Of a stretch of 64,000 nt of DNA, positions 61,564 to 64,000 are shown piece by piece. Position 1 is the stretch's first letter. Every line of letters begins with the position of its first letter. Source of the stretch: Stackebrandtia endophytica (GTDB taxonomy: Bacteria > Actinomycetota > Actinomycetes > Mycobacteriales > Micromonosporaceae); the NCBI RefSeq assembly GCF_006716355.1, contig NZ_VFOW01000001.1, positions 1,612,001-1,676,000 of the forward strand. Reading direction: 5' to 3'. The notes under the pieces were generated by a model. The model did no database searches and was not told the origin of the DNA. It saw only the letters and a list, made by a program, of their open reading frames with translations. Position numbers and translations under genes: made by a program.

Positions 61564-62595
61564 ATGTCCACCGGTCATCTCACCAACTTCGTCGGGCTTC
61601 CCGTCGTGGACTTCCTGTCGGAGGGCGCCAAGGCGGACCACACCAGGTACGGCGGCCCGAACGCGACCGATGTCGCGGCGTTGAGCAAACTCGCCGACGA
61701 CGCGGCGACCGAGCCCGCTTTGGTGGCCTGGCGACTTCGCGTCGTGGAAGACGTCGAAGAGTTTCCCGACTACCTCGACCGTTTCACCCGCGAGGTGGAC
61801 ACCACACGCATCTCGGCCCTGGTGATCGGCGACTGGGGCGTCACCGACGCCGGCGCGGCCTCGACGGAGGCACGTGACGCCCTCATAGCCAAGGTGGCGG
61901 CGTTTCCCGCACTGCGCGCACTGTTCTTCGGCGACATCACCAGTGAGGAATACGAGATCTCGTGGATCACGCAATCCGACATGGCTCCACTGTTGACGGC
62001 CTTCCCGCTGCTGGAGGAGTTCACCGTTCGGGGCGTCGGCGACGGGCACAGCGGGCCGGGTCTGGCTCTGGAGATACCCGAGCACGACGCACTGCGATCA
62101 CTGACCGTCCAAAGTGGCGGACTGCCGGGTCGGATCATCGGCGAGATCGCCTCCTCCGCCCTGCCCGCGCTGGAACGGTTGGAGCTGTGGCTGGGGGTCA
62201 ACGAGTACGGCGGTGACGCCGTGCCCGCGGACATCGCCACCGTGCTGTCCGACGAAGCCTTCCCACTGCTGACCCACCTGGGCCTGCGCAACTCCGAGGA
62301 GACCGGGATCTGGTTGCAGGCACTGACGCAGTCCGCGGTGCTTCCCCGACTCACCTCCGTCGATCTGTCCCTGGGCACTCTGCGCGACGACGACGTGGAC
62401 CTCCTGTTGTCCGCCATCCCGAAACTGGCCCACCTCGCCTATCTCGACCTTCACCACCACTACCTCACCGATGCCAAGGTCAAACAGGTCAAGGCCGCAT
62501 GCCAGAAAGCCGGACTCATCGTCAACCTCGGCAATAAGCAGGAGCCCGACGAGTGGGACGGCGAAAAGCACTACTACCCGGCTGTGGGCGAGTGA
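61564..62595 (+). CDS. STM4015-family protein (LRR-like)
   Basis: The 343-residue protein matches, as I recall it, the STM4015 family: HLTNFVGLPVVDFLSEGA near the N-terminus, VIGDWGVTDAGAAS, then leucine-rich repeat-like segments (AFPLLEEFTVRGVGDG, LERLELWLG, LTSVDLSLGTLRDDDVDLLL). It is cytosolic and has no catalytic motif that I can see. GCGAGCG lies about five bases before ATG 61564; the longer frame from 61342 reads into deoA's promoter. It overlaps the next gene by GTGA. The family occurs beside STM4014, STM4013 and radical-SAM genes, but its role is undescribed. Confidence 0.85.
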   Translation: MSTGHLTNFVGLPVVDFLSEGAKADHTRYGGPNATDVAALSKLADDAATEPALVAWRLRVVEDVEEFPDYLDRFTREVDTTRISALVIGDWGVTDAGAASTEARDALIAKVAAFPALRALFFGDITSEEYEISWITQSDMAPLLTAFPLLEEFTVRGVGDGHSGPGLALEIPEHDALRSLTVQSGGLPGRIIGEIASSALPALERLELWLGVNEYGGDAVPADIATVLSDEAFPLLTHLGLRNSEETGIWLQALTQSAVLPRLTSVDLSLGTLRDDDVDLLLSAIPKLAHLAYLDLHHHYLTDAKVKQVKAACQKAGLIVNLGNKQEPDEWDGEKHYYPAVGE

Positions 62596-63725
62596 CGACC
62601 TCGCCGTCGGTCGCCCGCCTGGTGACGGTGTGCGTGCCACAGAACCGGCGTCGCCTACTGTTCGTCGAGGCGGCCCGCCGAGCCGGTTGGGATGAGCCCG
62701 AAGTGGTGCCGTGGCGGGATCTGGCCGACGAGGGCATCGCGATCTCACTGCCGGAGAACGCACTGGTCAGAGTGGATGCTCCCGGTGAAGACGTCGAGAC
62801 GGCGCGACTGCTGCGCGGTTGGGATCACGACCCGGATCTGCATCGGGTCGAGGGCGGCGCCGATCAGCATCGCGGATTCGTCGCCGCGCTGGATCGGCTG
62901 TCCCGGTTGGTGACCGCCACCCCCGGTGCGCGGCTGCTGCAACAGGTCGACGACCTGATCGACATGTGTGACAAACGCCGTTGCCACCTGCGGTTGAGTC
63001 GAGCGGGCGTACCGGTTCCGCTGGCATTGCCCGGACCGATCACCGGCTACGCCTCCCTGCGCGACCAGATGGCCGAGCACCGAATGGCCCGGGTATTCGT
63101 CAAACCCGCCCACGGCTCCTCCGCCTCGGGGGTGATCGCGCTGGCGGTCGCACCCGGCCGGGTCAGGGCGGTGACCTCGGTCGACCTCGTCCGCGATGAG
63201 GACGGCCGGATCCGGCTGTACAACTCACTGAGGCTTCGCACCTACAGCTCGCCGGACGAGGTGGCGGCCGTCGTCGACGCGCTGGCCCCCGACGGACTGC
63301 ACGTCGAGCGGTGGGTCCCGAAGGCCGACGTCGACGGTCGGGTAGTGGACCTGCGGGTGTTGGTGGTCGCCGGACGCGCCACCCACGTGGTGGTGAGATC
63401 CTCCCGCTCGCCGCTGACGAACCTGCATCTGGGAAACGCCCGTGGCGATACCCGCGCACTGCGCGAGGCGATCGGTGAACCCGCCTGGCGGGCGATGCTT
63501 GGCGTGGCCGAGGATGCCGCCGCGGTGTTCGGCTCCACATTGCACGCCGGTGTGGACGTACTGGCATCGCCTGACTGGCAACGGTTCGCCGTCGGTGAGG
63601 TGAACGCGTTCGGAGATCTGCTACCCCGGATTCTTCACAATGGACGCGATACCTACGCCGAACAACTGCACGCGCTGGCCACCGGCGCGTTCCAGCCCCT
63701 TAGCCCGACCCCTGTGGAGCATTGA
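62592..63725 (+). CDS. STM4014-family protein (ATP-grasp-like)
   Basis: The 377-residue protein shows the STM4014 start VCVPQNRRRLLFVEAARRAG and VVPWRDLADEG. The central FVKPAHGSSASGVIALAV is an ATP-grasp-like nucleotide loop, and GEVNAFGDLLPRIL near the end carries the probable metal residues. ATP-grasp enzymes join carboxylates to amines, so a peptide-bond or ligase-type reaction is likely. GTG 62592 overlaps the previous stop (GTGA), and its own stop overlaps the next ATG (TGATG). Substrate unknown. Confidence 0.85.
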   Translation: MTTSPSVARLVTVCVPQNRRRLLFVEAARRAGWDEPEVVPWRDLADEGIAISLPENALVRVDAPGEDVETARLLRGWDHDPDLHRVEGGADQHRGFVAALDRLSRLVTATPGARLLQQVDDLIDMCDKRRCHLRLSRAGVPVPLALPGPITGYASLRDQMAEHRMARVFVKPAHGSSASGVIALAVAPGRVRAVTSVDLVRDEDGRIRLYNSLRLRTYSSPDEVAAVVDALAPDGLHVERWVPKADVDGRVVDLRVLVVAGRATHVVVRSSRSPLTNLHLGNARGDTRALREAIGEPAWRAMLGVAEDAAAVFGSTLHAGVDVLASPDWQRFAVGEVNAFGDLLPRILHNGRDTYAEQLHALATGAFQPLSPTPVEH

Positions 63726-64000
63726 TGAGCGATCGCGTCGTGCCGGGTGGCGTCCCGGACATGAATACCCTGGTGGGAACCCACGACATCCTGCTGCTCA
63801 CCCTGGACACCCTGCGATACGACGTGGCGGCGGAACTGGCGTCGGCGGGGCGAACCCCGAACCTGGCGGGCCTGCTGCCCAAAGGCGGGTGGGAACGACG
63901 ACACTCCCCCGGTAGCTTCACCTACGCCTCGCATCTGGCGATGCTGGCCGGTTTCCTCCCCACCCCGGCGAACGCCGGTCCACACCCGAGGCTGTTCGCC
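63725..64000 (+). CDS. STM4013/SEN3800-family hydrolase (5' part only)
   Basis: The first 92 codons are present and the gene runs off the right edge. DILLLTLDTLRYDVA holds the metal-binding Asp of alkaline-phosphatase/sulfatase-superfamily enzymes. WERRHSPGSFTYASHLAM and AGFLPTP match the STM4013 family, where the Ser/Thr after the SPGS motif probably is the nucleophile. The ATG overlaps the previous stop by one base. Further cluster members, usually two radical-SAM genes, would be expected outside the window. Confidence 0.9.
   Translation, partial: MSDRVVPGGVPDMNTLVGTHDILLLTLDTLRYDVAAELASAGRTPNLAGLLPKGGWERRHSPGSFTYASHLAMLAGFLPTPANAGPHPRLFA

Follow-up and report, generated by a model that had tools for sequence, protein, structure and literature searches.

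The window analysed here is a stretch of 64,000 nucleotides from Stackebrandtia endophytica (contig NZ_VFOW01000001.1, positions 1,612,001 to 1,676,000 of the forward strand), whose host genome is a single contig of 5.66 Mb. At its right end begins a cassette of five genes of the families STM4015, STM4014, STM4013, STM4012 and STM4011, which are named NCBIfam families whose names carry no function, followed by a gene for a HAD-IIB hydrolase. We read 16 kb of the same contig around the right end of the window, 12 kb of this beyond it, and located the following features, numbered from the first letter of the window:

61564..62595, plus strand: STM4015 family protein (343 amino acids, aa), a leucine-rich repeat (LRR) protein of the ribonuclease-inhibitor type; NF038076, 331 bits (cut-off 275)
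62575..62592, plus strand: C-terminal tail of STM4015, YPAVGE, with Glu343, the proposed attachment site, as its last codon (62590-62592)
62592..63725, plus strand: STM4014 family ATP-grasp protein (377 aa); NF038074, 429 bits (cut-off 175)
63725..64594, plus strand: STM4013/SEN3800 hydrolase (289 aa); NF038075, 407 bits (cut-off 250), and PF00884, 36 bits
64591-65904, beyond the window, plus strand: STM4012, a radical S-adenosylmethionine (SAM) protein; NF006067, 621 bits (cut-off 380)
65909-66889, beyond the window, plus strand: STM4011, a radical SAM protein; NF038073, 393 bits (cut-off 200)
66898-67703, beyond the window, plus strand: HAD-IIB hydrolase; PF08282, 118 bits

All five STM proteins score above the curated NCBIfam cut-offs, which upholds the family assignments made for the first three in an earlier sequence-only reading of the window, and their genes lie on one strand, each overlapping the next or separated from it by a 4-bp gap. 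The coupling proposed in that reading is equally secure, the GTG start of STM4014 at 62592 falling within a GTGA overlap (62592-62595) at the end of STM4015, and the ATG start of STM4013 at 63725 within TGATG (63723-63727) at the end of STM4014. The window holds only the first 276 bases of STM4013, the remainder lying past its end, and the STM4012 and STM4011 radical SAM genes that had been predicted to the right of position 64000 are indeed the next two genes, which disposes of the refuting case set out in that reading, an absence of such genes. After STM4011, a gap of 8 bp leads to the HAD-IIB gene, whose product is above the NCBIfam cut-off for HAD-SF-IIB and below that for the Cof subfamily. 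STM4015 is single-copy in this genome. A comparison of gene order across genomes, also suggested earlier, found the cassette kept as a unit in five phyla, the full order recurring in loci of Actinomycetota, Deinococcota, Pseudomonadota, Bacillota and Chloroflexota. The existence of the complete cassette is virtually beyond doubt. The separate short precursor open reading frame (ORF) that had been named as something to look for is not supported: with every junction between the five genes either an overlap or a 4-bp gap, there is no room for a precursor gene between them, and no suitable gap was found from 61564 to 66889, the 154 bp before STM4015 not having been examined for very short ORFs.

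What the cassette might act on is suggested by the end of STM4015. Relatives of this protein were found at no fewer than 577 places in the GTDB genome set, and the best 80 of 577 were kept. The search used a pattern within the LRR body, and several of the matches stopped short of the tail, yet these proteins end in Glu; the sample was therefore not selected for the tail. For the alignments, domains were thinned at 78% identity; from the full-length ones (73 for STM4014, 71 for STM4013, 68 for STM4012, 70 for STM4011 and 116 for STM4015), 33, 11, 8, 13 and 42, respectively, were aligned, and the window, window-flank and plasmid sequences were added. Glu343, the final residue, is invariant in 11 of the 11 STM4015 proteins first aligned (nine organisms; 280-357 aa), despite a preceding stretch of variable length, and in 43 of 43 proteins of the larger alignment. 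A first set of tails, drawn up with no bit cut-off and before the Chloroflexota loci were added, had Glu at the end of all 137 distinct C-termini. In a second set, to which Chloroflexota and one further actinobacterial region were added and from which ORFs below 200 bits or without a stop codon (including a shortened copy at locus L048 and an unrelated LRR protein in L166) and duplicate last-60-residue sequences were left out, Glu was the last residue of 149 of the 154 distinct C-termini. The Glu-ending tails come from Actinomycetota, Deinococcota, Pseudomonadota, Bacillota, Bacteroidota and Chloroflexota, and the pairwise identity of 159 STM4015 ORFs averages 48.5% and goes down to 22%.

The commonest tail reads [YF]-x-[AS]-[VIL]-[GSAT]-E, mostly YVAV[GS]E; one Escherichia coli copy ends MNPMFTE and a homologue on a Calothrix plasmid ends YCSVAE. 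Positional entropy is lowest at the last residue (0.23 bits), followed by positions -6 (0.84; Y in 129 and F in 18 of the 154 tails), -3 (0.87), -4 (1.04) and -7 (1.58), and reaches 2.1 to 3.1 bits at -2, -5 and -8 to -12. The twenty residues ahead of the last six hold on average 6.9 acidic and 1.8 basic residues. Between the last LRR strand motif and the C-terminus lie 42 to 61 residues (148 proteins, strands located with a simple motif) and, because this distance varies, the Glu keeps its place with respect to the C-terminus rather than to the fold. The other cassette proteins served as controls, with Glu at the end of 0 of 91 STM4014, 1 of 88 STM4013, 0 of 81 STM4012 and 2 of 86 STM4011 proteins, as did other long ORFs, a mixture of real and spurious ones (59 of 2610). 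The terminal Glu of STM4015 is almost certainly under strong selection that is tied to its being the chain end. We set aside the idea that STM4015 is an ordinary LRR protein, an unrelated LRR protein of one Chloroflexota genome, a single case, ending EEDIF.

The copy number of STM4015 varies as that of no other cassette gene does. Among the 82 loci with all four enzymes, 51 have one copy, 23 have two and one has three; four copies occur in five loci, five in one and seven in one (cut-off 130 bits, with fragments counted). The enzymes are single-copy, the two apparent doubles being split ORFs. Loci with 4 to 7 paralogues are L106, L046, L045, L160, L161, L164 and L165. Within loci of three or more copies, these are 38-81% identical and keep the terminal Glu except in four odd Chloroflexota copies. 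Variable substrates beside single enzymes are the usual look of maturation systems for ribosomally synthesized and post-translationally modified peptides, which the STM4015 copy pattern, taken by analogy, would resemble. At L048 (11860-12477), where a fragment enters the count as a second copy, this shortened, decayed-looking STM4015 has lost its last repeats and kept the tail RYPAGTE.

An AlphaFold2 model of STM4015, with a predicted local distance difference test (pLDDT) of 90.9, has as its top solved match the Bacteroides fragilis protein 2ra8, followed by F-box, ribonuclease-inhibitor and NLRP-type LRR proteins. The STM4015 family profile matches 2ra8 at 1e-105, and its last matched residues are SYPMITE, with the Glu at position 354 of 362; the eight residues beyond it are presumably a tag. 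The Bacteroides STM4015 protein (L037, 6627-7700), of which 2ra8, released in 2007, is a close homologue, has an N-terminal WGR domain, and no paper naming 2ra8 was found in the open PMC literature. No cysteine stands among the invariant or near-invariant columns of the STM4015 alignment, which does not match a LysW-type zinc domain with four cysteines.

An analogy between STM4014 and LysX was first drawn from the STM4015 tail and from weak NCBIfam matches of STM4014 to RimK (16.9 bits, cut-off 143.4), LysX_arch (14.4 bits, cut-off 275.6) and MptN, ahead of any structural model or Foldseek search. The AlphaFold2 model of STM4014 (pLDDT 91.4) then gave as top Foldseek matches in the PDB the LysX/ArgX enzymes solved with LysW (5k2m, 3.8e-12; 3vpb, 7.0e-12), and next the D-cycloserine synthetase DcsG, RimK and the graspetide ligase PsnB. 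A profile comparison by hhalign matched STM4014 to an alignment of ten RimK-family proteins with 97.1% probability (E 5e-11), the alignments of the four other cassette families, used as controls, reaching at most 1.2%. Residues K171, D253/R255, N277/H279, D322, E336 and N338 are paired with the RimK pattern, namely its ATP-binding Lys, D-R, N-x-H and the metal ligands D and E-x-N, and all of them are invariant in 34 STM4014 proteins. Computationally, STM4014 thus has a ligase fold with conserved catalytic residues, and we propose, from model and alignment, that it may be a RimK/LysX-like ligase acting on the STM4015 tail.

Both radical SAM enzymes keep their radical SAM cysteines intact. The CxxxCxxC motif of STM4012 (C51/C55/C58) is invariant in 13 sequences, and its solved relatives include HemN (1olt, 1.8e-51) and the methyltransferase NocN (3.3e-32). 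In 18 STM4011 sequences, the radical SAM cysteines C49/C53/C56 are invariant, as are C243/C261/C285/C290/C292 on the C-terminal side, which resemble a SPASM auxiliary-cluster domain in sequence, with PF13186 remaining below its cut-off; the top PDB match of STM4011 is SkfB (6efn, E 0.0016). STM4013 has invariant D28, T66, D246, H247, H259 and H263 (16 sequences), and among solved structures it scores best against nucleotide phosphodiesterases and an uncharacterised protein from Vibrio, with sulfatases next. A sulfatase needs Cys or Ser at the formylglycine position. From the spacing, we take T66 to occupy the nucleophile position. The earlier description of STM4013 as a phosphatase/sulfatase-type enzyme stands as regards the alkaline phosphatase superfamily, and its sulfatase part is doubtful because an invariant Thr, and not Cys or Ser, would occupy that site; if T66 is the nucleophile, STM4013 would count among the phosphodiesterases or phosphatases and not among the sulfatases.

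The HAD-IIB gene directly follows STM4011 in the window genome, Salmonella, E. coli and four Nocardiopsis genomes; it is nearby in Deinococcus taeanensis and, weakly matched, 3 kb away in a fifth Nocardiopsis. By similarity to three such proteins, it occurs near STM4011 in 8 of 86 loci and is thus a minority partner. The presence of two members of phosphohydrolase type hints at a phosphorylated intermediate. In Bacteroides finegoldii (L037, 9034-10644), STM4011 is fused to a HAD-IIB hydrolase.

Because its final residue is near-invariant, we propose STM4015 as what the cassette loads and modifies, and on balance we favour reading the cassette as a protein-scaffolded modification system that has STM4015 as its substrate. 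In such a system, the LRR body would be the part recognised by enzymes and partners, with the short Glu-ending tail placed behind an acidic stretch. STM4014 would activate a carboxylate of the terminal Glu with ATP and attach an amine or an amino acid to it. The HemN-like STM4012 and the SPASM-like STM4011 would then carry out radical chemistry on what has been attached or on the tail, while STM4013, aided in some lineages by the HAD phosphatase, would take off a phosphate-type group. In this scheme, we infer the tail as ligase substrate, the sequence of reactions, the kind of group attached and the release or retention of the product. That the terminal Glu is the covalent site used by STM4014 is, in our estimate, slightly the better assumption. 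The LRR protein had previously been cast as a possible scaffold or recognition partner; this can now be sharpened, a substrate or carrier being likelier than a passive scaffold because the last residue is nearly always Glu and the copy number varies. Of the modified-peptide or small-molecule pathway envisaged from the first three genes, the presence of the radical SAM genes and the conservation of the cassette hold up, and its product and route stay conjectural. A more tentative extension, which we would not rate as probable, is a new class of protein-borne chemistry: the constant Glu handle would be loaded by the ligase and finished by the two radical SAM enzymes, the group would stay on the protein, and the differing bodies of the LRR proteins, at most seven per operon, would bring the same unusual chemical group to different partners; retention is favoured over release because the cassette contains no peptidase and there are many LRR paralogues.

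Several observations weigh against this interpretation. The sample of relatives, being the best 80 of 577 matches, is skewed to Actinomycetota. Five tails are exceptions, each the lowest-scoring copy in one of five Chloroflexota genomes and ending YLA or YLQD, all of these genomes also carrying Glu-ending sister copies. The LysX match of STM4014 is at the level of the fold (template modelling score 0.52 by query length, root-mean-square deviation 5.5), D-Ala-D-Ala ligases nearly equal LysX in fold score (8evy, 2.6e-11), and sequence profiles by themselves give poor scores (LysX, E 0.05; cyanophycin synthase, 0.0023). The stretch before the STM4015 tail is predicted to be ordered in the model, with a mean pLDDT of 96 for residues 331-340 and of 72 for the last three, so that a floppy arm is unsupported. 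The six cassette proteins, as distinct from the flanks and genomes, which were not searched, include no peptidase or amidase that would account for a release as in LysW systems. No STM4014 was found between STM4015 and STM4013 at L057 (10951-11841), and at L084 (10869-13598) STM4013 was not found and STM4014 and STM4012 are in one ORF. Finally, conservation of the C-terminus could mark a docking signal instead of a substrate.

If it does, the C-terminus would be a mere recognition handle, and STM4015 would hold or deliver the enzymes while a free small molecule is made or salvaged. LRR proteins, as STM4015 is by its modelled fold, are usually binding platforms, a soluble metabolite would go well with two phosphohydrolase types, STM4013 and the HAD protein, and the want of a peptidase among the cassette proteins for releasing a protein-bound product fits as well. 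It is not obvious, however, why a platform should come in 4 to 7 paralogues per operon, and just such C-terminal Glu residues are the targets of the ligases that STM4014 resembles most. We consider this alternative unlikely. Less likely again is an extension of the chain itself, in which a RimK-like STM4014 lengthens the C-terminus by at least one amino acid as a regulatory or maturation tag and the radical SAM enzymes modify what was added in the manner of pearlins. The top fold matches of STM4014 include RimK structures, and it retains the RimK-type residues, but RimK is not known to have radical SAM partners; pearlins likewise build on a peptide C-terminus, as part of PMC9303977 describes, but load a tRNA-borne amino acid (a passage of PMC9016710). 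Pearlin loading is not known to use an ATP-grasp enzyme. Chain extension differs from modification of the terminal Glu only in the carboxylate used and the group added, and the present results do not separate the two. A crosslink within the tail, analogous to that of PqqA and made by STM4011 between Tyr/Phe and Glu to give a protein-derived group, with STM4014 acting elsewhere, is improbable: an aromatic residue at -6 in 147 of 154 tails, the Glu end of 149 and the five invariant C-terminal, SPASM-like cysteines of STM4011, whose best PDB match is SkfB, would fit it, but it is weakened by the Salmonella, E. coli and Methylobacterium copies, which have no aromatic at -6 beside complete cassettes, and gives neither the ligase nor the phosphohydrolases anything to do.

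The distribution of the cassette is patchy. STM4014 is above its cut-off in 6 of 296 genomes of the window's phylum, the window genome included, and in none of eight genomes of the same order outside the family; STM4015 occurs in 6 of 201 Chloroflexota genomes, and the first four cassette genes are found in 154 of 5426 complete E. coli genomes, in all cases on the chromosome. At the sole Bacteroidota locus, L037, the cassette is incomplete and looks degraded, STM4012 not being found and STM4013 being a fragment. A single ORF covers STM4014 and STM4013 at L091 (11000-13123); the anomalies at L091, L084 and L057 are fusions, losses or draft errors. No cassette was seen alongside the Calothrix plasmid homologue of STM4015, and STM4014 was undetected on that plasmid. 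In a Salmonella Newport plasmid record (L130, 6001-6108), just 36 codons of STM4015 are left, beside typA, and the cassette may be dispensable in this case. One E. coli strain (L176, 5001-5848) has STM4015 annotated as frameshifted and the other five genes annotated as whole.

Complete cassettes are frequently flanked by a DUF6745 protein and a protein of about 100 aa:

L033, 12127-13436
L034, 5616-6941
L038, 5148-6770
L039, 12085-13382
L040, 12158-13479
and many actinobacterial loci

The ~100-aa protein beside DUF6745, the one recurrent small neighbour tested when a precursor was looked for, flanks 49 of the 82 complete loci and is not universal; DUF6745 together with a ~100-aa protein of the pattern GH(S/A)H...HEEH...QREY flanks 47 of the 82. 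The DUF6745 C-terminus is [EQ]-[TA] in 49 of 50 proteins beside cassettes, against 2 of 5 in genomes without the cassette, and DUF6745 may be a second carrier-like protein. We rejected it as a required component and kept it as an associate, since it flanks only part of the loci, has no match in the window genome by a search that did match elsewhere, and occurs without STM4014 above cut-off in 5 of 8 DUF6745 genomes of the 296-genome set.

Genomic location was dropped as a functional clue. Here, the cassette is set between genes that we take by eye to be of deoA type and of cytidine deaminase (cdd) or nucleoside transport type, the deoA-like gene to the left and the cytidine deaminase-like gene to the right both lying on the opposite strand, whereas the Salmonella and E. 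coli cassettes sit between ompL or a DeoR-type regulator and typA; the nucleoside neighbours therefore say little. A role in defence was also rejected, a PADLOC scan of seven proteins having matched STM4012 alone, and weakly (29.5 bits).

The cassette families are annotated in Salmonella, some E. coli, streptomycetes, Deinococcus and others, with no function in their names. Among open PMC papers, we found nothing on their function; STM4015 appears as a hypothetical protein in a selection table in one part of PMC2784778, and STM4013.S in a sigma-54 table that forms part of PMC3844500. The near-invariant last residue makes this radical SAM cassette of unknown function directly testable on a C-terminal peptide of STM4015. 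If the proposal is true, carrier-protein biosynthesis extends beyond small LysW-like proteins, and enzymes can equip an LRR protein with a chemical group.

Among known systems, RimK, the ligase of ribosomal protein S6, which acts on the C-terminal Glu of that protein, belongs to the same ATP-grasp group as STM4014, and the metal, ATP and acceptor motifs of the two align in hhalign. STM4014 is, however, far below the RimK cut-off of NCBIfam, and RimK is not known to have a dedicated LRR substrate or radical SAM partners. The graspetide ligases PsnB and MdnC are within the top 50 fold matches of the STM4014 model. Graspetide ATP-grasp ligases activate Glu or Asp carboxylates of a precursor and crosslink them inside a short core, whereas the only near-invariant acidic residue of the STM4015 tail is its last, and no hydroxyl or lysine partner is conserved to the same degree. 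In pearlins (3-thiaglutamate and 3-thiahomoleucine), a ribosomal carrier bears a small product that is assembled at its C-terminus, and one of the pathways uses radical SAM chemistry, according to a part of PMC9303977; they are loaded from tRNA, according to a portion of PMC9016710, and the carrier TglA has ~50 residues, whereas the cassette instead has an ATP-grasp ligase.

Closest to our proposal are the LysW/ArgW carriers with LysX/ArgX of Thermus, Sulfolobus and haloarchaea, and Vzb22 in Streptomyces. Passages of PMC9303977 and PMC10433800 describe amino-group carriers as holding a building block on the gamma-carboxylate of their C-terminal Glu during modification, and their acidic residues as serving recognition; in part of PMC10433800, LysX links the amino group to the gamma-carboxyl of the C-terminal Glu of LysW, and ArgW E54A results in arginine auxotrophy. 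STM4015 shares the C-terminal Glu and an acidic stretch with these carriers, and STM4014 resembles their RimK-type ATP-grasp ligases in fold and catalytic pattern, with LysX/ArgX as best fold match, though far below the LysX_arch cut-off. LysW differs in being a zinc protein of ~54 residues ending EDWGE (PMC10433800, in the same part), STM4015 being an LRR protein; the later steps of the LysW systems are of kinase, reductase and aminotransferase type, whereas the cassette has radical SAM and phosphohydrolase enzymes; and the releasing peptidase is absent from the proteins of the cassette itself, to which that search was confined. Because the LysW fold, the downstream enzymes and the known releasing hydrolase are not shared, we do not file STM4015 as an amino-group carrier, and propose, by analogy, that it may work like one without being related to LysW. 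In relation to NCBIfam, in which all five proteins of the window genome are family members above cut-off, what this analysis adds on the families STM4011 to STM4015 is the terminal Glu, the pattern of copy numbers and the fusion with HAD.

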